A DNA stretch of 64,000 nucleotides, taken from the NCBI GenBank assembly GCA_022824365.1, contig JAJEAA010000002.1, positions 124,001-188,000 on the forward strand, written 5' to 3'. Below the pieces are notes generated by a model. It had not been told where the DNA came from and did not search any database. It saw only the letters and a program-made list of their open reading frames with translations. A program made the position numbers and the translations under genes. Origin of the DNA: Anaerolineae bacterium (lineage in GTDB: Bacteria; Chloroflexota; Anaerolineae; Aggregatilineales; Phototrophicaceae). Within the stretch, counting starts at the first letter, position 1. The number at the start of each line of letters is the position of its first letter. Positions 3,300 through 51,375 of the stretch are shown here, piece after piece.

Positions 3300-3934
3300 G
3301 AGTCTGCCTCGCGCTTGCGCTGAAGAACGGTAAGCACCGCTTCGAGATTGGTGACATCGCCGTAGTGGGTATCGATATCGTATAAAGTGACTTCCTGAGC
3401 TTGCGGGCTGGTGGCCATCACCAGATCTTCAGGTACCAGCACCTTGTAACGCAGGAAGAAAGCATCGTGGACGGTGGAGCGCACGCAGATATTGGTGACC
3501 ACGCCGGTGACAATGACAGAATCGATGCCCCGCTCACGCAGCGTGAGATCGAGCGTGGTCTGGAAGAAGCCGCTGTAGCGCCGTTTGGGGATGACGATAT
3601 CGTCCGCTTCGACTGGCAGCTCGTCCACGACTTCGGCGCCCCATGAGCCGGCCAGGCAGTGCACGGTGCGCATTTCGAAGAGGCTGTCGTCTGGCGGCAG
3701 GCTTTGATTGAGCCAGAGGACGGGCATGCCCGCGGCGCGCGCCGCCGCCAGAAGTTTCTGGTGAGGCGCATACAGCGCGTCGCCGCCTTCAAGAACCATC
3801 GCACCGCCGTCCTTGAAGAAATCTTTAAGCATATCGACCACGAGCACAGCGGTGGTCGCCGGGTCAAAATCAGTGATCTTGTGCCGCTGCTGATCCGACT
3901 GCTTCTCGGAGAATGAGTTGCTGGTTATTGACAT
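3296..3934 (-). CDS. isochorismatase-like cysteine hydrolase
   Basis: A 212-residue cysteine hydrolase of the isochorismatase fold. The catalytic triad is visible: Asp34 (VVDMLKDFF), Lys117 (IPKRRYSGF) and Cys150 (VTGVVTNICVRST) with the expected cis-peptide pattern just before the cysteine. Relatives include N-carbamoylsarcosine amidase, ureidoacrylate amidase, nicotinamidase and maleamate amidase, all cleaving a small amide. Its stop overlaps the start of the enamidase-like gene by four bases, a strong sign that the two act in sequence. The exact amide cannot be told from sequence. Confidence 0.85.
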   Translation of the reverse strand: MSITSNSFSEKQSDQQRHKITDFDPATTAVLVVDMLKDFFKDGGAMVLEGGDALYAPHQKLLAAARAAGMPVLWLNQSLPPDDSLFEMRTVHCLAGSWGAEVVDELPVEADDIVIPKRRYSGFFQTTLDLTLRERGIDSVIVTGVVTNICVRSTVHDAFFLRYKVLVPEDLVMATSPQAQEVTLYDIDTHYGDVTNLEAVLTVLQRKREADS

Positions 3935-3988
3935 GCCTTTCGCCCCCCAATTCGCTCGCAGCGCCGGCTGGCTGGTCGAGCCGTTTAT

Positions 3989-4558
3989 TCATGTCTGATC
4001 ATCTTTACGTTCGATGTCACTTAACTTGAGGCCGCCGACGCGCGCATGCGGTCGGCCGCCATCGGTGACGGCGACGATGACCACAATTTCGTCCGGCGCT
4101 GGGGCATCATCTATGTAAAAGGCGATGGCGTCGAAATGCGATCGCAAGTACATCTCATCTTTGTGGTGCAGAGGCACATCAATGGTCGTGCCCGGTCCGC
4201 CGGATTTCTTCGCCGACGGGATGATCGCCCGTCCGCCACCGACGGCTTCGCGCAGTGGCGCGCCCAAGGACGGGTGCAGCAAGGCGGCCGCGTGTTCAAG
4301 TTCGCCGCTCGCGCCAACGATGGCCGCTTTGCCGTAACTGTGCGGATCGCCAACGAGTTGCGCGACGGCAGTTTCGCCGAGCAACTTGCCGAGCGCGGCG
4401 CCAGTCTCGTAGAGCTCGCTGAGATCTCCTACATAGCGCCCGGCACAGGGATTCTTGATGACAGCGCCGGTCGCAACTCTGCGCAGTGGTTTCGCTAAAC
4501 GCCGGAATCCCTCGTTGTGAATGACGTCGGCAATGGTCCGAATTCGGACTAAGTCCAT
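3989..4558 (-). CDS. AA_synth (DUF1185, PF06684) family protein
   Basis: A 189-residue protein with the hallmark segments of the amino acid synthesis family: VIKNPCAGRYVGDL, SYGKAAIVG, GELEHAAALLHP, AIIPSAKK and IDVPLHHKD, ending in AVTDGGRPHARVGGL. The family name is historical; no reaction is established to my knowledge, though members often sit in catabolic operons with amidohydrolases. The gene overlaps the upstream epimerase by about ten bases (4549-4558), so it belongs to the operon. A small ring-opening or isomerising hydrolase is a guess only. Family assignment is confident, function unknown. Confidence 0.8.
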   Translation of the reverse strand: MDLVRIRTIADVIHNEGFRRLAKPLRRVATGAVIKNPCAGRYVGDLSELYETGAALGKLLGETAVAQLVGDPHSYGKAAIVGASGELEHAAALLHPSLGAPLREAVGGGRAIIPSAKKSGGPGTTIDVPLHHKDEMYLRSHFDAIAFYIDDAPAPDEIVVIVAVTDGGRPHARVGGLKLSDIERKDDQT

Positions 4559-7940: not shown

Positions 7941-8825
7941 TCAACTCTTGACGGCGCCGGCGGTCAAACCTTCGATGAACCAGCGCTGCATAGCGACGTA
8001 CAGAACGATGACCGGAATTGTGACCATGCTGAGCGCGGCAAAATAGAGCGTCCAATCGGCCGAGTAGCGATAGAAGAAGTTGACCAAGCCCAAGGGAATC
8101 GTCTGCAGTTCGGCCTGGCGGATAAAAATGAAGGCCAGAAAGAATTCGTTCCAGAAAAACATACCTTGAAAGATTGCGACCGTTGCCAGCCCGGGCCGTG
8201 CCAGGGGTAGCACAATATGCCAAAATACCTGCAATCGGTTGGCGCCATCGACCAGAGCGGCGTCCTCCAATTCCGGCGGAATCGACATGAAGAAGCCGCG
8301 CAGGAGAAAGATGCTAAAGGCCATAGAGGTGCCGGCGTAAACAAATACGAGCCCGAAACGGCTGTTAAGTATGCCCAGCGTTCTGACCACGATGAATAGA
8401 GGTATGACGGTGACCTCTGGAGGAATCATCATGGTCGCCAGAATGATGAGAAAGATCGCCTGACGACCGGGGAACTGCAGGCGGGCCAAGGCATATGCGG
8501 CAATCGACGACACGATCAACAGCACGGTCAAGCTGAGCACGGTGATGATGATGCTGTTGCCGATGCGCGCGCCCAGATCAGCGATGCGCCAGGCATCGAC
8601 GTAGTTCTGCCAGATCATCATCCGAGGCGGTCCCCAGACATTATTGAACAGATCTGCGTCAGTTTTCAGGGAGCCGAAGACCATCCAAAACAGTGGATAG
8701 ATAGTTTGAACGGTAGCGACGATGAGAATCGCGTAGACCAGCAGCAGCTTGAGACGATCGCTGAAATGCCTCGAAAACAGATCGGAGTAGATATCGGAAT
8801 TCCTTTGCCTGACGGCGGTCGCCAT
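7941..8825 (-). CDS. ABC sugar transporter permease, MalG type
   Basis: A 294-residue inner-membrane permease with about six transmembrane segments. The cytoplasmic EAA loop that contacts the ATPase is clear (ELEDAALVDGAN, then LPLARPGLAT). It pairs with the MalF-type permease 14 bases upstream and the binding protein at 10860-12173 to form a carbohydrate importer of the CUT1 kind. No ATPase gene is present in the operon, so a shared MsmX-like ATPase elsewhere is likely. Substrate unknown. Confidence 0.92.
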   Translation of the reverse strand: MATAVRQRNSDIYSDLFSRHFSDRLKLLLVYAILIVATVQTIYPLFWMVFGSLKTDADLFNNVWGPPRMMIWQNYVDAWRIADLGARIGNSIIITVLSLTVLLIVSSIAAYALARLQFPGRQAIFLIILATMMIPPEVTVIPLFIVVRTLGILNSRFGLVFVYAGTSMAFSIFLLRGFFMSIPPELEDAALVDGANRLQVFWHIVLPLARPGLATVAIFQGMFFWNEFFLAFIFIRQAELQTIPLGLVNFFYRYSADWTLYFAALSMVTIPVIVLYVAMQRWFIEGLTAGAVKS

Positions 8826-8839
8826 GTGCTCTCCTGGCC

Positions 8840-9691
8840 TCAGAAGTTATAAGCGCCGCTGCGGCCAATGCGAATATAGGTGAAGGCGATGACCGCTACG
8901 ACGACAAACAAGGCGAATCCCATGGCCGAAGCGTAACCCAACTTGCCGAAGCGGAAGGCCTGCGTCACGAGGTGGGTCAGCACAACCTCGGTGGTGTGAT
9001 TGGGTCCGCCGTCGGTCATCACGAAGACCAACTCGAAGTTTCTGACGAAGGCGCCATTCAGTGACAGTAGCACGCTGATAAAGGTCACCGGGGCAAGCAA
9101 GGGCAGGGTGATGCGGGTGAGCCGCGCCCACGCGCTGGCGCCGTCAATGATCGCCACTTCGTACAGATCCTTCGGGATCGATTGCAGGCCGGCCAAGAAC
9201 AGGACCATATGAAAGCCGGTCCATTTCCAAATGTCGACCGTGATGATGGCGCCGAGCGCGGTCGCCTGATCGCTTAGCCAAGCGCGAATCAGGTTGTCCA
9301 GCCCCAGCAATTCCAGCCCGGCATTGAGCAGACCGAAGGTGGGATTGTAGATCCAGGACCAGAGCAAGCCGATAACGACAAAGGAAAGCGTAACCGGCAG
9401 AAAGAGGGCAGTGCGAAAGAAGATAACGCCCTTAATCTTTTGGTTTACGAGCAGCGCCAGGAAGAGCCCCAATACATTTTTGAACAGCACGACTGAGACG
9501 GCGAAAATGATCGTATTTGTCACCGCTTTCAGAAACACATCATCGCGTTCAATCAGCCTGACGTAATTCCTTGTGCCGATGAAGACGGGCGAATTGAAGC
9601 CATCCCAACGATGAAAGCTCAAGTAAAAGCCGTAAATTATTGGGATGATGACGAAGATGATCAGGAGGATGATGGCTGGCGTCATCATCAT
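8840..9691 (-). CDS. ABC sugar transporter permease, MalF type
   Basis: A CUT1-type permease with about six transmembrane segments and an EAA loop (LYEVAIIDGASAWARLTRI). The first ATG (9691) begins three consecutive methionines directly before transmembrane helix 1, with no ribosome-binding site. The frame stays open for 38 more codons upstream to a TAG at 9806-9808, and these encode a basic stretch (KRKRYPRVYRHLSAY) that looks like a normal cytoplasmic N-terminus of this family. There is no ATG, GTG or TTG there. Either a rare start codon is used, such as ATT at 9798-9800, or the sequence has an error. Confidence 0.88.
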   Translation of the reverse strand: MMMTPAIILLIIFVIIPIIYGFYLSFHRWDGFNSPVFIGTRNYVRLIERDDVFLKAVTNTIIFAVSVVLFKNVLGLFLALLVNQKIKGVIFFRTALFLPVTLSFVVIGLLWSWIYNPTFGLLNAGLELLGLDNLIRAWLSDQATALGAIITVDIWKWTGFHMVLFLAGLQSIPKDLYEVAIIDGASAWARLTRITLPLLAPVTFISVLLSLNGAFVRNFELVFVMTDGGPNHTTEVVLTHLVTQAFRFGKLGYASAMGFALFVVVAVIAFTYIRIGRSGAYNF

Positions 9692-43415: not shown

Positions 43416-44183
43416 TCAAATGCCGACCGCATATACGATCATCCGCTCGCTCTCGGCATCATAAGGATTGCCATCCCCGTCGCCTTGTACCGTTCGCAGA
43501 GCGAAGCCGCAACGCTCCAGCAGCAGCCGCAATTCCGGCAAGAAGAAATAGCGCAGTCGATGCGGCGCGACCAGACGCCTGACCACGCCTGCGCCATCAA
43601 TCTCATCGTATATCCATTCCACGCTCAGGATCTGCTCCGCGCGATCAAGATAGCTGACCGACTGCAGCATAATCAGATGGCCCGTATCGGGATCAAGGAA
43701 GCTGCGCTCAAGGTTAAGAGCGTCGCTGTCTTCCGAGGCAAAGGCGGGACCGGCATTTGGCAAGTCGATTACCAGAGTGCCGTCAGCGGCGAGGCAGCCT
43801 CGCAGATTCCGCAGCAGCGCGATCTGCTCTTCCAACTCATGGAAGTGCATCAATACGTTGTAGGTCAGCAGGATCAGGCCGAATTCTCGTGTCCATCGGT
43901 GGCTCAGCGCATCGCCGCATATGTAAGAGATGCGCTCGCGAAGCTGCGGCCTCATGTTCAGCTTTTCTTCCAACCGATCCAGCATCGCGCGGTCCCTTTC
44001 GATGCCATGCGCCGAGTGTCCCGCACCCGCCAGATGTATCAGCACCCGCCCCGTGCCGCAGCCTACATCAAGAATATCCCCGGCCGCCTCCGCCGCCAGC
44101 CTGCTGTATATGGCGAGATCATCAGTCTTGTCGCTGTTCTCGGCATCGTAGAAGCGCGCCACTGTCGTATAAAACGCGGACAT
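43416..44183 (-). CDS. SAM-dependent methyltransferase
   Basis: I prefer the ATG at 44183 (MSAFYTTVARFYD) with AGGGGCTGAGG just upstream; 44219 is possible. The product is a class I methyltransferase with ILDVGCGTGRVL (motif I), GIERDRAMLDRL and LVIDLPNAGPAF. The Leu-rich N-terminus ARFYDAENSDKTDDLAIY is common in small-molecule methyltransferases. Substrate unknown. It lies 42 bases past the DUF262-HNH gene on the same strand but is not obviously part of the defence operon. Confidence 0.85.
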   Translation of the reverse strand: MSAFYTTVARFYDAENSDKTDDLAIYSRLAAEAAGDILDVGCGTGRVLIHLAGAGHSAHGIERDRAMLDRLEEKLNMRPQLRERISYICGDALSHRWTREFGLILLTYNVLMHFHELEEQIALLRNLRGCLAADGTLVIDLPNAGPAFASEDSDALNLERSFLDPDTGHLIMLQSVSYLDRAEQILSVEWIYDEIDGAGVVRRLVAPHRLRYFFLPELRLLLERCGFALRTVQGDGDGNPYDAESERMIVYAVGI

Positions 44184-44225
44184 CCTCAGCCCCTGGAATC
44201 TTCGTGATGACCAGCGCAACCAGTC

Positions 44226-45320
44226 TTATTTCGCCGACTTCTCTCGGTTGCATTTGCGGCAGAGCATTTGACAGTTGGCTTCTTCTGTCTTGCCGCCTTC
44301 AGACCAAGGCGTTATGTGGTCGGCTTCCATATCAGAAATGTCAAACGACTTATCACATTTCTTGCATTTGCCCGCTTGCTTCTCATAAACGCGCTGCTTC
44401 ATGCCATCGGTAAAGGCGCGGATATTCAGATGCTTCTCTTCGCCAGTGAGTAGATAGGGATAAATCCCTCGTTGGCTCGTAACATCATCATCAAGGATAA
44501 GCCGTTGGGTGTCCGCTTCAATCCGCGCGGAGTCCAGGTCCGCGTCTTTGTAGGCATTGTATAAACTGCCCCAGTCGACGCCTTTCATGATTTTCACCCG
44601 TTTCTTGGTGAATGTCGATTCAATCCAGTCGATGACATCCATAAAGTAATCCCACAAAGGGGCGGCGCTTTTATCGTGCTGGTGAATGCCCATGTAATCT
44701 TTGATGTTGCCGTCGCTAATCCACTTGATAACCGTTTCGAGATGGGCTTGGCGATTCGGGGAGCCGCTCAAATAATCGCCGCCCAAGCCCGCGGAGGGAC
44801 CGCCTGTTTTGCTGAAATAGCGCTTGGCGTCGGATACCCATGGCCCCGAGTAAATCGCGTTGCGCAACTCTTGATTCGATAGCTGTTTCCCCGCGATATT
44901 GATGATCTTAAACCACTCCAGCTTTTCGCTAGGTTCACCACTGCACACATAGACCATCAGCTTGTAATTGAGTATCCGTTCCTTTACATCGGACGGTTGA
45001 TTGTCAAATCCAAGCCCCTCAAAGAAGAAGCCCGGCTTTTGCGCCACATATCGGGCGATTGATATTGTGCGTTGCTGGCCGTCGATGATCTCGAATCTTC
45101 CATCCGGTCGGTCGAACCAGTACATGACATTGAGCGGGAAACCCTTCAAAATGGAGTTAATTACAGCGTCGCGCTCCTTGGGATCGTAGATGAATTCGCG
45201 CTGAAAGGGCGGGCGAATATCCAGCTTGCCGCCGTAGCCGACCACGCCGCCCTCGCCGTCGTCATGGTAGCCCTTGACGAGATCGCGGACTGTGAGATCT
45301 GTCAGCAACTGGATTTTCAT
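44226..45320 (-). CDS. DUF262-HNH nuclease (GmrSD-like)
   Basis: The ATG at 45320 overlaps the TGA of the upstream membrane-protein gene as ATGA; an ATG four codons earlier (45332) is less likely, because the paralogous ORF at 46233 starts at the same residue. The 364-residue protein has an N-terminal DUF262 ParB-like domain (RPPFQREFIYD, then FEIIDGQQRTISIARY with the IDGQQR motif) and a C-terminal HNH domain (CKKCDKSF, MEADHITPWSEGG, CRKCNREK). GmrSD-type proteins hydrolyse nucleotides and cut modified or foreign DNA. In this operon it is the presumed effector nuclease, last of five coupled ORFs. Confidence 0.85.
   Translation of the reverse strand: MKIQLLTDLTVRDLVKGYHDDGEGGVVGYGGKLDIRPPFQREFIYDPKERDAVINSILKGFPLNVMYWFDRPDGRFEIIDGQQRTISIARYVAQKPGFFFEGLGFDNQPSDVKERILNYKLMVYVCSGEPSEKLEWFKIINIAGKQLSNQELRNAIYSGPWVSDAKRYFSKTGGPSAGLGGDYLSGSPNRQAHLETVIKWISDGNIKDYMGIHQHDKSAAPLWDYFMDVIDWIESTFTKKRVKIMKGVDWGSLYNAYKDADLDSARIEADTQRLILDDDVTSQRGIYPYLLTGEEKHLNIRAFTDGMKQRVYEKQAGKCKKCDKSFDISDMEADHITPWSEGGKTEEANCQMLCRKCNREKSAK
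45225..45294. repeat. direct repeat, DUF262 start, copy 1
   Basis: The first about 70 bases of the intact DUF262 gene are nearly identical over the CGACGGCGAGGGCGGCGTGG core to bases at 46141-46210. The match marks the paralogous start of the collapsed second DUF262 gene. Confidence 0.75.
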
Positions 45321-46057
45321 TGTTGTAACCATTCTGCGATTTGGATGATCGCTAATACAATAGATACCCAGAACGCTATTTTCCCAGCGTATTTTTCATA
45401 CCATGATGGCTCACATAACAACTCAAAAGCAGCATTTGTCATTACGTATCTGTCAAAGGTGTCTTCTTCAGTCTTTTCCGCATATCCTAATGCAACCATA
45501 GCATCTAGTAGCCACTCAGAGTCGCATTTTTCATTTATCCCTACAATACTAGAGTTCCGAGAAATGGGCTGTTCTATCCTGAACAAGAGATACCGCCATA
45601 ATCGACTTCTTCCAGGATTGTCATTTGTCATTCGAAGCTGAAGAAGTTGGTTATGACAGAAGAGCTCGTTTTCCCAATACCTGCTCAAAACTCCATGAGC
45701 GAGTTCCTTTGTAATAGTTTGGACATATGCAAAATAGTCTGTGTTTGTTGGTATGATATTATCGTCTAGAGCTAAGCGCCAAGACTCGTATTCAGCTTGG
45801 AATTTCGTTTTTTCTGGTGCAACGTACTTTACTTTATGTCTTTCTGCATACTTAATGACAGAATCATAGAAACGGGATGATATTAGGAAAATAGTCTTTG
45901 GCATTGGTGCATGATAGCTCTTAGAATAAGCGAGTATCTGTTCGTCACGCTTTAGTAGAAGAAATCCGTATTTTCCCAATGCTGTTCTATCGAGAAGTTC
46001 AGTGGGGTCATTTTCAAGATCAATGATCTCTAGTTCTGGGTCTGGTATAAGTTTCAT
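45317..46057 (-). CDS. unknown protein with C-terminal membrane helix
   Basis: I do not recognise this 246-residue protein. It has a soluble N-terminal part (KYGFLLLKRDEQILAYSK, FLISSRFYDSVIKY), a middle with many aromatic residues, and one C-terminal transmembrane helix (KIAFWVSIVLAIIQIAEWL) right at the end, so most of it probably faces the cytoplasm. Its A/T content appears higher than its neighbours. ATGA overlaps join it to the chimeric ORF upstream and the DUF262-HNH gene downstream, so it is an integral part of the module. A membrane-anchored sensor or regulator is one possibility. Confidence 0.75.
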   Translation of the reverse strand: MKLIPDPELEIIDLENDPTELLDRTALGKYGFLLLKRDEQILAYSKSYHAPMPKTIFLISSRFYDSVIKYAERHKVKYVAPEKTKFQAEYESWRLALDDNIIPTNTDYFAYVQTITKELAHGVLSRYWENELFCHNQLLQLRMTNDNPGRSRLWRYLLFRIEQPISRNSSIVGINEKCDSEWLLDAMVALGYAEKTEEDTFDRYVMTNAAFELLCEPSWYEKYAGKIAFWVSIVLAIIQIAEWLQQ

Positions 46058-46233
46058 CCTATTAGCGCCATTTTCTGCCTCTTGTTGCGAATAATGATCC
46101 GCGCGTATTTTCTGTCGCCTCTGTCATAGAATCTGCCGAGCTTGCCCCCGTAGCCGACCACGCCGCCCTCGCCGTCGTCATGGTTGCCGGCGACGAGGTC
46201 GAGGACGGTGAGGTCACGCAATTCGATTTTCAT
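46054..46233 (-). pseudogene. chimeric DUF262 / methyltransferase remnant ORF
   Basis: This 59-residue ORF is not in the usual size range. Its first 32 residues repeat the start of the DUF262 protein (MKIELRDLTVLDLVAG against MKIQLLTDLTVRDLVKG, then HDDGEGGVVGYGGKL in both). The next 27 residues (RFYDRGDRKYARIIIRN, then KRQKMALIG) resemble the C-terminus of the EcoRI-family methyltransferase nearby (IDGKRKYRRIVMRRRKLA). It overlaps the 155-residue gene by 20 bases upstream and the 246-residue gene as ATGA downstream. The best explanation is an in-frame deletion fusing the start of a lost DUF262 gene to the end of a lost methyltransferase gene. Confidence 0.75.
46141..46210. repeat. direct repeat, DUF262 start, copy 2
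   Basis: Copy within the chimeric ORF, differing from copy 1 at only a few bases over the central 45 and at more toward the codons for LTVLDLVAG. Confidence 0.75.
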
Positions 46234-46681
46234 GGGCGTACTCTATTAGTTCTTTTCTTGACATTCCAAGCCAGCCGTCCGGGTACTTTGCGAAGCTTTT
46301 ATAAGGCTTAAGGACATAGGCTTCCATGTTTTTCTCGTAGTAAACTCTGTCGCCCTCTTTCCGTTTGTAGGTAAGACTTAGCAAGCTCGGGTTGAAAAAA
46401 CGGGTAATGTAGTTCATGCATCTTTTATATTTTTGGGGCTCGGAATCTATATGCACGACGAGCTCGAATGCTTCAACTCTACCCGTCTTCACGTCGATAG
46501 GGCTGCGAATCTCTCCTCTTTCCTCGTCGTGGGCGAAGACTGTGACGCGACTAAGTACGTCCCTTTCCCACTTCCGCAAATCATGGGCTTGGTAGAGTGC
46601 TTTAAGGCCGCCAGTTCCAACAGTGCCTAGAAACCAGCCCAGGATTGTGTACCAAACTTCGGAGGGAACTTGTTCCATCAT
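46214..46681 (-). CDS. unknown protein with N-terminal membrane helix
   Basis: A 155-residue protein I do not recognise. A hydrophobic segment (WYTILGWFLGTVGTGGL, about residues 10-26) near the start is followed by a soluble, charged domain (ERGEIRSPIDVKTGRVEAFE, EGDRVYYEKNMEAYVLK). Its ATG overlaps the methyltransferase stop as ATGA (46678-46681), so it is co-translated with it. It occupies the same place after a methyltransferase as the 246-residue protein does after the methyltransferase remnant. It probably anchors or senses something at the membrane. Confidence 0.7.
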   Translation of the reverse strand: MMEQVPSEVWYTILGWFLGTVGTGGLKALYQAHDLRKWERDVLSRVTVFAHDEERGEIRSPIDVKTGRVEAFELVVHIDSEPQKYKRCMNYITRFFNPSLLSLTYKRKEGDRVYYEKNMEAYVLKPYKSFAKYPDGWLGMSRKELIEYAHENRIA

Positions 46682-47682
46682 GCTAGTTTCCTGCGTCGCA
46701 TTACGATCCTGCGATATTTCCGCTTCCCGTCGATCTTAAACATGCTGTCTCCCGCGCCACTGTCTCTAAGAAGTATCCAACACAACCCGTCAATCTCAAA
46801 TTGGTCCGGATTGTATTTGTTCAAGAAGGTAATTGGCACGCCCATTGCGCCGTCCCAATCTCTCGGAATATTCGCGACCTTTGACACTTCAATCGCATCG
46901 TAGTTGTCGTAATGAGGGTATTCCTCGGGCGAGTAGCTCTTATACAAAATCAGTTCTTCGTGCCTTTGCCGGTAGTCCAGATTGGTATACCAGGATGCGC
47001 TGCCCAACCTTCCGTAAACAACGCCATCTACGATCCTGTATGCGCTGCCCTCTTTCTTCGTCGCCACCAGTTCTTTGGCATAATCTTCTGGAACATCAAA
47101 CAGCATGTCCTTTCCGCGAGGCGTGATGCCAAGCCACAATTTGTTGTCTTTAATCAAGGGGAATATCTCTTTATAGGTAATCGCGTTCTGATGACCGACT
47201 ATCAGAAACTTCTTGTCATATTCAATCAACTGCGCCACATATTCGCGGAACAGCGAAAAGGGCGGGTTTGTCACCACAATATCAGCCTGTTTGAGCAGCT
47301 CGATACATTCCGCGCTTCTGAAATCGCCATCGCCTTGGAGATAGTGTATGCCGATGTCTTCGACTGACGGAACGCCGGTCTCGTTCTCTGTCCCGTCGTA
47401 TTCCAGCCAGATTGCCTTTTCCGCATCGTGCTGGCTGAACATATCCATTTGCTGGTTCTTGTAGCAAGTCGTAATCAGTTTCTCTAAGCCGAGCACGCGG
47501 AAGTTGTAGGCGAAGTAATGAAAGAAATTGCTCACTCGCGGATCATCGCAGTTGCAATAGACTACCTTGCCGCGAAAGTGCTCGCTGTAATGACGGAGTT
47601 CATTCTCTATATCGACAAGCTGAGTGTAGAACTCGTCTTTCTTGTTGGACTTCGCTTTGTGCAGGTTTCGGTTCGCCGACAT
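46678..47682 (-). CDS. EcoRI-family adenine-specific DNA methyltransferase
   Basis: A 334-residue enzyme of the EcoRI methylase family (PF13651 type). The signature opening MSANRNLHKAKSNKKDEFYT and YCNCDDPRVSNFFHYF, then DIVVTNPPFSLFREYV (NPPF catalytic motif for N6-adenine), match that family. It methylates adenine in a specific DNA site and would protect host DNA from the DUF262-HNH nuclease encoded downstream. GGAAA-type bases precede the ATG. It begins the minus-strand module of five coupled ORFs. Confidence 0.88.
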   Translation of the reverse strand: MSANRNLHKAKSNKKDEFYTQLVDIENELRHYSEHFRGKVVYCNCDDPRVSNFFHYFAYNFRVLGLEKLITTCYKNQQMDMFSQHDAEKAIWLEYDGTENETGVPSVEDIGIHYLQGDGDFRSAECIELLKQADIVVTNPPFSLFREYVAQLIEYDKKFLIVGHQNAITYKEIFPLIKDNKLWLGITPRGKDMLFDVPEDYAKELVATKKEGSAYRIVDGVVYGRLGSASWYTNLDYRQRHEELILYKSYSPEEYPHYDNYDAIEVSKVANIPRDWDGAMGVPITFLNKYNPDQFEIDGLCWILLRDSGAGDSMFKIDGKRKYRRIVMRRRKLA

Positions 47683-47716: not shown

Positions 47717-48901
<1,185 letters not shown>

Positions 48902-48987
48902 GTGCTTCTCCTCACTTTCGCGTCCGCCCGCTCTATGACATACTTTTCGGCGGATTCTGACCAACTCTCGATTTTTCCTACCCAGCC

Positions 48988-51375
48988 TCAATTCCGCAGC
49001 GGCTTGTTCGTCTGCAACATGTGCATGATGCGCTCCTGCGTCTTCGTCTCCATGATCAAGCTCAGAAACGCTTCCCGCTCCAGATTCAACAGAAACTGCT
49101 GATCCACCCACTGCGGTTCCGCCAGCGCCGCGCCCGTCAAGATGTAAGCCAACTTCCGCGCGATCAGAGCATCATGCTCGCTGGCATAACCTGCCTCCAA
49201 GAAGCCCGCCACGCCGAGCAACAAAGCGGCATGAGCATCACGACCGGCAGCGTAAACCGGCTCCGGCGGCCGCGGAATGGCGGTTTCGCTCATAGCCAGA
49301 GCCTGCTTCTTCGCCTCGCCCAGCAGATGCGCGCGGTTCATCACGACCTTGTCCGACTCAGCCAGCAAGCCCAGGGCCTTGGCTTCTTTGGCGCTGCCGC
49401 TCACCTTGGCCATCGCTATCGTCTCGAAGGCTTTCTGCAAGCCCGCCAGCACATCGTCCGCGCCGCCGCGCGCGAGCGGATTGACCAACCGCCGCGTCAT
49501 CTCCTTGCAGCCGCCGCCCGCCGGGACCAAGCCGACGCCGACCTCAACCAAGCCCATATACAACTCGATATGGGCCACGACAGCCGTCCCCGACATCACC
49601 AGTTCCGCGCCCCCGCCCAGCGCCATATTATGCGCGGCGACCACAACCGGTTTTGGCGCGTATCGCAAAGCCTGCGTCAAATCCTGCAGGCTGACCAGCG
49701 CCTTCTCAATGCCCTCCAAACCAGCCATCAACGCCGCCGGATCCAGGTTCGCCCCGATAGAAAAGCGCTCGCCATCATTGCCGATCACCAGCGCCTTGTA
49801 GTCGTCTCGCGCCAGCATATCCAGCGCCTGCCAGCCGGACTCGACCAGACCCGGCGTGACGGTATTCTGCTTGGTATTGAACTCCCACAGCAGAGCGCCG
49901 TCGCCCATATCGTAGATCCTGCCATCGCCATTGCTGTAAACTTCGGCGTCGGACGCGCGCAAATCGGCAATCGCGATCTCACGCGGGTCCCGAGCCAGCG
50001 GCCGATAATCGCGCTCTTGCGGACTGTAGAAACCCGTGACCTTGCCCTGCGCGTCCCGTTGATAAAAGGTCGCATGCCCGTCGGCGAGCATCGCCTTGAC
50101 CCAATCCGCCACTGGATAGCCATCAGCCTCGAAGCGCTCAATCGTCTCCGCCACGCCGATGGCATCCCAAATCTCGAAAGGTCCCATCTGATGCGCGAAA
50201 CCCCACTTTTGCGCGTTGTCCACATTGACGATGGTATCGGTCACTTCCGGCACGCGGTTGGAGGCGTAGGCCAGCAGGAAGGCGTGCAGGTGATAGAGGT
50301 ATTGCCCGGCGCGGTCATCGGCGTTGATCAGCAGCCGAATGCGTTCGCCCAGCGGCTCTACCTTGCGGTACTGCCCGACAGAATCAAAACGCGGTTTGCT
50401 CGGCGGCTCATACTCCAGCGTATCCAGGTTGAGCGCCCACAGTTCTTTCTTCCCGCCATCGCGCCGCATGTGGTAAAAACCTCGGCCCGTCTTGCGTCCC
50501 AGCCAACCGCGCTCCAGCAATTCATCCGATAGCGCGGCATTCTTCTCGTGCATCAGCAACTCGCGCGCCGGGTCGTCAGGAATCGCATGATAAAGATTGC
50601 GCGCCACGCCGACGGCGATATCAAAGCCGACCAGATCATTGAGGTTAAAGGTCGCGGTCTTGGGGCGTCCGATCAGAGGACCGGTCAGCGCGTCAACTTC
50701 TTCCACCGTGTAACCATGGTCGAGCGCGTAATTTGTCGCCTGCATGCCCGACATCGACATGAAGCGATTGCCGATGAAGTTCGGCGTATCGTTGCAAAGC
50801 ACCGTGCCCTTACCCAAAGTCTCGGCGCCGAAGCGCATCATGAAGTCGACGATCTCGCGATCGCTGCCGGCATGCGGGATGATCTCCAGCAAGCGCAGAT
50901 AGCGCGGTGGATTGAAGAAATGCGTCCCGAGAAAGCGGCGCGTGAACTCCGGCGGCAAGCCCTCGGCGATGCTGGAAATGGGAATACCGGATGTATTTGT
51001 CGTCACGATGGCATCGTCACGTACGACATCGACCAGCCGCTTCATCAAACCGCGCTTGATATCAAGATTCTCCACGATAACTTCAATGACCCAGTCGGCA
51101 TCCGCTGCCTGATGCAAGTCGTCTTCGGTGTTGCCGATGCGGATATTCCCCAAGTCATCGGCGCTGAAAAGCTGCGGCGGCCGGCTTCTGCCCAGCGCCT
51201 TGAGATTGCGCGCCACAATCGCGTTGCGGACCTTTGCTCCATCCCCGGGCGATGTGTCCGCGGGCGGAATATCCAGCAGCAGCGTTTTGATGCCGACGCC
51301 AGCCAAGAGCGAGGCGATGCCCCCGCCCATCGTGCCCGAGCCAATCACAGCCGCGCTTTTGATCTGAAAGCCCAT
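48988..51375 (-). CDS. fadN: 3-hydroxyacyl-CoA dehydrogenase/enoyl-CoA hydratase, FadN-like
   Basis: The ATG at 51375 (MGFQIKSAAVIGSGTMGGGI) is preferred to the extension to 51471, which overlaps the SDR gene. The 795-residue fusion has an NAD-binding and dehydrogenase half first (GSGTMGGGIASLLAG, GTHFFNPPRYLRLLEIIP, KDLVGFDIAVG-like NLNDLVGFD) and a crotonase half last (IGANLDPAALMAG, AHNMALGGGAELVM, ELYMGLVEVGVGLVPAGGG). The order fits FadN rather than FadB. It hydrates enoyl-CoA and oxidises 3-hydroxyacyl-CoA, feeding the thiolase encoded next. Confidence 0.9.
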   Translation of the reverse strand: MGFQIKSAAVIGSGTMGGGIASLLAGVGIKTLLLDIPPADTSPGDGAKVRNAIVARNLKALGRSRPPQLFSADDLGNIRIGNTEDDLHQAADADWVIEVIVENLDIKRGLMKRLVDVVRDDAIVTTNTSGIPISSIAEGLPPEFTRRFLGTHFFNPPRYLRLLEIIPHAGSDREIVDFMMRFGAETLGKGTVLCNDTPNFIGNRFMSMSGMQATNYALDHGYTVEEVDALTGPLIGRPKTATFNLNDLVGFDIAVGVARNLYHAIPDDPARELLMHEKNAALSDELLERGWLGRKTGRGFYHMRRDGGKKELWALNLDTLEYEPPSKPRFDSVGQYRKVEPLGERIRLLINADDRAGQYLYHLHAFLLAYASNRVPEVTDTIVNVDNAQKWGFAHQMGPFEIWDAIGVAETIERFEADGYPVADWVKAMLADGHATFYQRDAQGKVTGFYSPQERDYRPLARDPREIAIADLRASDAEVYSNGDGRIYDMGDGALLWEFNTKQNTVTPGLVESGWQALDMLARDDYKALVIGNDGERFSIGANLDPAALMAGLEGIEKALVSLQDLTQALRYAPKPVVVAAHNMALGGGAELVMSGTAVVAHIELYMGLVEVGVGLVPAGGGCKEMTRRLVNPLARGGADDVLAGLQKAFETIAMAKVSGSAKEAKALGLLAESDKVVMNRAHLLGEAKKQALAMSETAIPRPPEPVYAAGRDAHAALLLGVAGFLEAGYASEHDALIARKLAYILTGAALAEPQWVDQQFLLNLEREAFLSLIMETKTQERIMHMLQTNKPLRN

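Follow-up and report, generated by a model that had tools for sequence, protein, structure and literature searches.

A type II restriction-modification operon of an Anaerolineae bacterium, probably with an internal slot for exchangeable defence-type genes

Which genes belong together in a predicted restriction-modification (R-M) operon whose two enzymes stand apart? The question is raised by a stretch of 64,000 nucleotides (hereafter the window) from an Anaerolineae bacterium (assembly GCA_022824365.1, contig JAJEAA010000002.1, positions 124,001 to 188,000; the contig, of 227,699 bases, is C21 of genome G000 in our numbering), in which genes for an EcoRI-type N6-adenine methyltransferase (MT) and a DUF262-HNH restriction endonuclease (RE) enclose three further open reading frames (ORFs). 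The original prediction read these five ORFs as two three-gene defence units, each of methyltransferase, membrane protein and nuclease, fused by a single deletion. Our analysis suggests a different arrangement as the probable one: a type II R-M operon in which a cargo slot lies between the enzyme genes and, in the window, holds two stacked cargo genes, putatively of antiviral function; the operon would owe its present form to a fusion of units. The five minus-strand ORFs, all of them present where predicted, and the junction within one of them are as follows (positions of the window).

46678..47682, minus strand: MT, EcoRI-type N6-adenine methyltransferase of 334 amino acids (PF13651, 448 bits; PADLOC MTase_II, 412 bits)
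46214..46681, minus strand: T155, cargo gene 1, 155 amino acids, with a weakly hydrophobic N-terminal helix and a domain without assigned fold; 8 homologues
46054..46233, minus strand: hybrid scar ORF of 59 codons, the head of an RE gene joined in frame to the tail of an MT gene
46137..46146, minus strand: 10-bp junction GGCAAGCTCG, common to RE heads and the L154-type MT tail
45317..46057, minus strand: T246, cargo gene 2, 246 amino acids, with an N-terminal part without assigned fold and a C-terminal hydrophobic helix
44226..45332, minus strand: RE, DUF262(GmrSD_N)-HNH restriction endonuclease (GmrSD_N, 69 bits; HNH, 52 bits; PADLOC REase_II, 413 bits)

The outer pair matches known type II R-M families: a methyltransferase of a type II family (PF13651, MTase_II) and an endonuclease of a type II family (REase_II over residues 13-368, with the Pfam domains GmrSD_N and HNH) are encoded in the same operon, which bears out the identities predicted for both. 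They match the known type II pair of EcoRI-type methyltransferase (PF13651) and GmrSD_N/DUF262-HNH nuclease (PADLOC PDLC03297, PDLC03418) over almost their full length, and differ from it in the cargo genes and RE-head copies that lie between the enzymes. The RE has at least 8000 relatives; in its alignment DGQQR and H339 are invariant and D338 is nearly so. With the GmrSD/BrxU type IV enzymes it shares an N-terminal DUF262 domain and an HNH-type nuclease (PMC4619093, PMC12707154; papers given by PMC number are cited for the available part of their text), but it has a PF01844 HNH domain rather than DUF1524 and is paired with a methyltransferase, so the system is probably protected by modification. 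The RE probably starts at the inner ATG at 45320, because most aligned relatives begin there. ATGA (4-base) overlaps join MT to T155, the 59-codon ORF to T246 and T246 to RE (at its inner ATG), and T155 overlaps the 59-codon ORF by 20 bases, all as predicted. At E 1, none of T155, T246 and the 59-codon ORF matches an entry of Pfam, PADLOC or NCBIfam.

In named genomes, 80 RE loci were surveyed and 72 of them have MT upstream; of these 72, 47 have the genes overlapping or at most 31 bp apart, 13 have them separated by 67-299 bp and 12 by more than 300 bp. The wide gaps comprise five from the window's genus, one (L034, L denoting loci) that looks like a shifted MT end, and six outside the genus that hold an ORF. 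Gap ORFs outside the genus encode DUF4160 with a below-cut-off match to DUF2442 (L033), a protein with an N-terminus judged hydrophobic by eye (L032, a Gemmatimonadetes bin), a protein with a HEPN match far below the cut-off (L017), and a short protein without assigned family (L031); a near-identical Fic gene stands between MT and RE in two Paludibacteraceae bins (L073, which was scanned, and L081; 6009-6938). A search of 154 genomes of the window's order located RE in 24, of which 22, the window's own among them, belong to the window's genus; of the 34 genomes of this genus, 24 have MT and 27 the 109-base RE start. The pair also occurs on plasmids of Gordonia, Sulfitobacter and Aeromonas.

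In the window's genus the gap between MT and RE appears to be a cargo slot with frequently changing genes. Larger cargo genes are carried by 28 of 37 hand-typed loci, where they bear 20 labels, or 16 if all HEPN-like proteins are taken as one (labels were set by hand, from blastp clustering and hmmscan, for larger genes only, leaving small coiled-coil genes uncounted; L132 was scored empty although its contig begins inside the slot; L133 is the same place as L186; L139, L151, L157 and L158, from other genera or families, stand outside most genus counts, L139 and L151 being included in the MT and RE trees). Among the 29 genus loci with both enzymes, 9 have no larger cargo, or 11 by stricter labels, under which L135 and L143 pass from cargo loci to cargo-free. 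As laid out in the sequences, cargo lies between MT and RE and often overlaps the next gene by ATGA. Effector-type genes are thus placed between R-M genes and co-oriented with them, as judged by position, strand and domains: ApeA_NTD1 is found in all three scanned members of a 4-member cluster, TIR_2 with YfbU in both scanned members of a 3-locus cluster, and HNH in both scanned members of another 4-member cluster, and single or paired cargos include DUF6602 (NucC-like by PADLOC), a HerA-like ATPase with hydrophobic segments, PIN and unassigned proteins. A T246-like group comprises 5 proteins and a HEPN-like group 12 proteins linked by clustering. HEPN is our own label for the latter: the members scanned have no Pfam HEPN match and PDB profile searches gave four matches at E 0.4-0.94 only; an alignment of 12 rows, in which L003 takes the place of L165, shows a single invariant His in the motif region. 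Hydrophobic segments were assigned by eye in the labels; a 19-residue mean hydropathy of at least 1.6, our threshold, holds for cargos in L005, L141 (178 amino acids), L148, L150 and L154 and for 4 of the 5 T246-like proteins. Small coiled-coil proteins encoded after an RE-head copy form a second cargo class, with one hydrophobic segment in 6 of 7 checked. Genes of this kind recur just before RE in L005, L140, L143, L148, L152, L186 and other loci, some with a promoter-like sequence upstream.

The two cargo genes of the window are no chance ORFs. T155 has 8 homologues (47-86% identity) and occupies the slot at 3 places, as located with tblastn and a search of genomes: in the window, in L186 (83% identical, with one in-frame stop) and in L134 (about 32%). 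T246 has 2 close homologues (71-73%), and four T246-like proteins, 28-34% identical, occupy the MT-RE slot of L002, L162, L175 and L182. The C-terminal helix predicted for T246 is firm, with a mean hydropathy of 1.78 over its best 19 residues; the one at the N-terminus of T155 is present but weak, at 0.96 against the threshold of 1.6, so that T155 is only doubtfully a membrane protein. The most probable role of T155 and T246 is that of interchangeable defence effectors.

If the slot exchanges its contents, loci at the same chromosomal site should be informative. The window locus lies at a site, here called A, between two genes conserved in the genus.

47717..49111, minus strand: thiolase (Thiolase_N/C), upstream flank at site A; an 801-base part is present in 34 of 34 genus genomes
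43416..44219, minus strand: SAM-dependent methyltransferase-domain gene (Methyltransf_25), downstream flank at site A; a 771-base part is present in 33 of 34 genus genomes

Comparison of flanks places 42 stretches at four sites, A to D, of which 37 were typed (all but L130, L161, L174, L180 and L183). In the 34 genomes, site A is empty in 14 (24-259 bp between the flanks; 9 read directly, 5 by coordinates), holds a two-component system in 11 and an R-M unit in 8 (5 contiguous, 3 split over contigs), and lacks the downstream flank in 1. The R-M unit is present or absent as a whole at a precise site, and site A is an insertion hotspot with alternative occupants. The two-component occupants (L187-L197) comprise a histidine kinase and a response regulator on the opposite strand (by Pfam in L187, L191 and L194, by eye in the rest); about half have a third gene, for an acidic or low-complexity protein. 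Cargo at site A consists of T155 and T246 in the window, an ApeA-type gene in L136, a T246-like gene with RE deleted in L162, a gene for a 242-residue protein in L167, TIR-YfbU in L128 and no larger cargo in L131 and L153. Distinct cargo states number 6 in 7 loci at site A, 8 in 9 at B, 5 in 8 at C and 12 in 13 at D, or 6, 6, 5 and 10 with the HEPN-like labels merged. Labels are shared by 3 of 103 same-site pairs (shuffled mean 8.2) and 27 of 275 different-site pairs, and after merging by 16 of 103 (shuffled mean 18.3) and 51 of 275, which indicates that cargo is simply independent of site; under either labelling, cargo does not appear to be inherited with the chromosomal site. Of the 9 labels that recur, 8 are seen at two or more sites. 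In the window's own genome, site D holds another, degraded copy (L159), with cargo and two RE heads, an RE cut to its last 31 residues and no MT match.

The enzymes themselves have also been exchanged, to judge from their relatives, which appear largely reassorted. With L008, the window locus shares 94% identity in MT and 72% in RE; with L002, it shares 92% in RE and 79% in MT. The nearest relatives of MT and RE lie in the same locus for only 4 of 29 loci. In the MT tree, site labels are unclustered (26 changes against a shuffled mean of 25.4).

Where such exchanges took place may be recorded in the 59-codon ORF, which is an RE start joined to an MT end, as the original prediction had recognized. 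Its first 97 bases match the window's own RE head at 85 of 96 aligned positions and that of L149 at 85 of 97; after the junction it follows the MT tails of L154 (55 of 59 bases) and L142 (57 of 65), and the window's own MT tail hardly matches it (best local match 18 of 24). Junctions of the same head-to-tail type occur in L003, L128 and L141 and twice in L186, and by eye a similar one is present in the C-terminal ends of two T155 homologues (P0126, P0129). A unique deletion in the window, as had been proposed, was rejected in view of these recurrent junctions. The other half of that proposal holds better: the locus looks like two fused units of MT, extra gene and RE, because its MT and RE have different nearest relatives and the junction is a shared 10-bp sequence. 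After T155 and the hybrid comes a HEPN-like gene in L186 but T246 in the window, and therefore the modules have apparently recombined. Over roughly its final 35 residues, MT takes several dissimilar forms, as viewed by eye, ahead of a common KYARIxIR-like end (46678-46780 of the window, L154, L142, L004, L007, L145), as if the MT end had been exchanged.

Many cargo modules have their ends marked by copies of the RE start. Of 66 blastn matches, 61 were kept as remnant heads after cleaning by hand; the five dropped (L143 7299, L176 5912, L180 2152, L128 3029, L137 11018) were partial, overlapping, from a truncated RE, 28 bp long or downstream of RE. Among the remnants, 54 begin at most 7 bases from the RE start, 48 with ATG, GTG or TTG there, and these 54 end variably, 33 to 110 bp further on, the upper value being set by query size. 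Among the 62 genus stretches read, at least two loci are divided between two contigs and some stretches were chosen through a head match; a fairer rate of extra heads is therefore that of the genus loci with an intact RE start, 14 of 32 of which have at least one. When each locus was searched with its own RE head, by one method throughout, an extra head was found in 3 of 7 genus loci versus 0 of 69 others. An upstream ORF of at least 75 codons accompanies 32 remnants and 12 own heads (22 and 20, respectively, are without one), and its stop falls exactly at +3 of the head (the TGA of the next ATGA) in 13 of the 32 and 8 of the 12. Behind the head copies, promoter-like sequences occur at up to 2 mismatches in 8 of 61 cases (0.46 expected; maximum 3 in 50 shuffles) and at up to 3 mismatches in 21 of 61 (4.5 expected); inside RE they occur in 0 of 32. 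Two neighbouring observations may be added: L158, in Chloroflexota outside the window's order, has a 70-bp RE-head remnant directly before RE, at about 8769-8852, with no cargo; and L003 carries, at 3766-4257, a gene with a just-below-cut-off match to Y1_Tnp (IS200-like transposase) in a cargo array beside tandem hybrid remnants.

We propose that illegitimate or homologous crossovers fuse R-M units because these have a common layout of MT, cargo and RE. In the window, the crossover would have fallen in the 10-bp sequence common to RE head and MT tail and would have yielded the order MT1-X1-(re1/mt2)-X2-RE2, in which one MT, one RE and both cargos are retained. The R-M operon would supply expression and coupling to the cargo; most cargo genes may encode anti-phage effectors of the abortive type, and T246 with its C-terminal anchor, less surely T155, would be a membrane-linked effector acting beside, not through, the restriction enzyme.

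Several results weigh against this proposal. No intact tandem of two units was found in the stretches read. In the RE tree, sites are weakly clustered (17 changes versus 20.4 shuffled, as low in 7 of 200 shuffles), and vertical inheritance of R-M by site, rejected for MT, is weakly kept for RE. MT and RE distances correlate over the 29 loci (rho 0.37, p 0.001). A weaker coupling peculiar to cargo loci was found with neither split: the correlation is 0.14 (p 0.17) in cargo loci and 0.18 (p 0.23) in cargo-free ones, or 0.10 and 0.07 by the stricter labels (neither significant). It is not clearly weaker in cargo loci, and so reassortment is not tied to cargo. A lower sharing of cargo within than between sites, seen at first, vanishes once the HEPN-like labels are merged. 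Some cargo copies are broken (T155 in L186, TIR in L163), and PDB profile searches with T155 and T246, both without assigned fold, gave no match.

Long target duplications have reportedly been proposed for R-M units by Kobayashi's group, and the strongest competitor of fusion by crossover, unlikely though we hold it to be, is that cargo entered the RE start by an insertion that duplicated some 60-110 bp of the target. Many cargos do have a remnant head before them and the RE head after them; the remnants share their start and vary at their 3' ends; small cargos follow remnants with promoter-like sequences in excess of expectation; and insertions of R-M genes are known to come with variable duplications of roughly 100 bp (Nobusato et al. 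2000, cited in PMC3874152). Here, however, the passengers lie inside the R-M unit, and the hybrids require an MT tail in addition to a head. The origin of the remnants, local or imported, gives a mixed outcome: two remnants in L129, one in L140, two in L143 and one in L148 are nearest to the RE of their own locus, but those in L008, L132, L141 and L147 are not, in an ungapped comparison that undervalues the window's own RE (3-base insertion).

The cargo effectors might instead be restrained by the R-M proteins and freed when a phage blocks restriction, in the manner of PrrC; this we regard as improbable. Such a role has been described for PrrC and other HEPN proteins in R-M operons (PMC3710099, PMC12707154), and the slot includes ApeA-type, HEPN-like and TIR proteins whose genes often overlap MT or RE. 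Yet the cargo outlives the enzymes. The RE core is lost in seven loci, in which the head is followed within 120 bases by the RE end (L159, L162, L172, L174, L176, L177, L186), and six of these, all but L174, keep an assigned cargo ORF. In the 94%-complete genome G510 (locus L182), intact T246-like and HNH ORFs persist and neither MT (E 1e-10) nor RE (E 1e-40) has a match, so restraint by R-M is not essential for these two families; on this genomic argument, a strict dependence of the PrrC kind is unlikely for them.

Still less probable, in our estimate, is that the cargo genes are neutral debris, decaying hitchhikers without a role. The broken copies and RE deletions would be in keeping with this, as would the differences per codon position, which are 0.062/0.046/0.200 in RE heads and 0.105/0.131/0.207 in remnants, a pattern to be expected if the remnants were once coding and are now relaxed. 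Against it, loci typed as cargo-bearing have long open cargo ORFs, most recurrent labels occur at more than one site, and several cargos match domains of antiviral type.

Very unlikely is the fixed three-gene defence system of the original prediction, with the membrane protein as a working subunit. The order of methyltransferase, extra gene and DUF262-HNH nuclease does recur in other genomes, exactly as MT, T246-like gene and RE in L002 and likewise in L162 with RE deleted, and hydrophobic segments are found in the cargos of L005, L141, L148, L150 and L154; the partner varies, however, and most loci do not have the same gene. With 16-20 cargo families in the slot, many without a hydrophobic segment, 9-11 of 29 two-enzyme genus loci without larger cargo, and enzymes that overlap or lie at most 31 bp apart in 47 of 72 surveyed loci, neither a defined trio nor a specifically membrane-bound partner stands, and the trio as a fixed system was rejected after the locus survey.

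Contigs end in, or within about 125 bases of, an MT match in L166, L170, L171, L183, L184 and L185; MT is probably multi-copy in these genomes, and arrays are therefore probably under-assembled. Multi-copy genes in metagenome-assembled genomes would cause such ends, but that the arrays themselves are artefacts of assembly is the least credible explanation of all, given extra heads in two naming series (RHO3, L003; jk18x, L005 and L008) and many other genomes, extra heads inside long contigs such as that of the window, and cargo families that recur with similar junctions.

The reading of the locus as an R-M operon with a cargo slot has precedents in part. HEPN families including ApeA, and the PrrC guard in EcoprrI, have been described in R-M operons (PMC3710099), RloF between hsdS and hsdR (PMC4619093), and guardian effectors (PMC12707154). 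Effectors inside R-M operons are therefore already described, and the slot with its turnover and scars would be a variant of that theme: antiviral-type genes including ApeA-type and HEPN-like ones are embedded here too, whereas the enzymes are a type II pair, cargo turnover at fixed sites is high, scars of the RE start lie between cargos, and some cargo persists without R-M. The arrays also resemble the orphan toxin-immunity modules of Rhs/CDI systems, in which variable modules with a fragment of the parent gene are arrayed at conserved loci (PMC3150448). The 54 remnant heads at module borders are comparable as an analogy only; in contrast to CDI/Rhs, the repeated piece is a restriction gene's 5' end and no secreted toxin was recognized in the cargo; a Pfam scan of 39 cargo proteins (6 from outside the genus; no dedicated search was made) gave no CDI/Rhs domain. 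Among the literature matches listed, judged by title and start of abstract and with few subscription papers covered, no description was recognized of cargo within an EcoRI-type MT/DUF262-HNH unit, and absence from print is not claimed.

The wider generalization, to which we give somewhat less than even weight, is that R-M units at a few fixed sites swap and stack antiviral effectors across species by way of the RE start and the MT end, perhaps without a dedicated integrase, and that T155 and T246 represent new, probably membrane-linked effector families. The locus offers a concrete, scarred record of the capture, stacking and exchange of defence-type genes, which elsewhere are mostly inferred from the statistics of defence islands, and its orthologous sites allow cargo turnover to be measured directly. 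The slot may also guide discovery, with T155, T246, the HEPN-like proteins and the membrane families as good candidate antiviral effectors. If the generalization is true, innate-immunity genes are swapped across species through a slot in the restriction operon.

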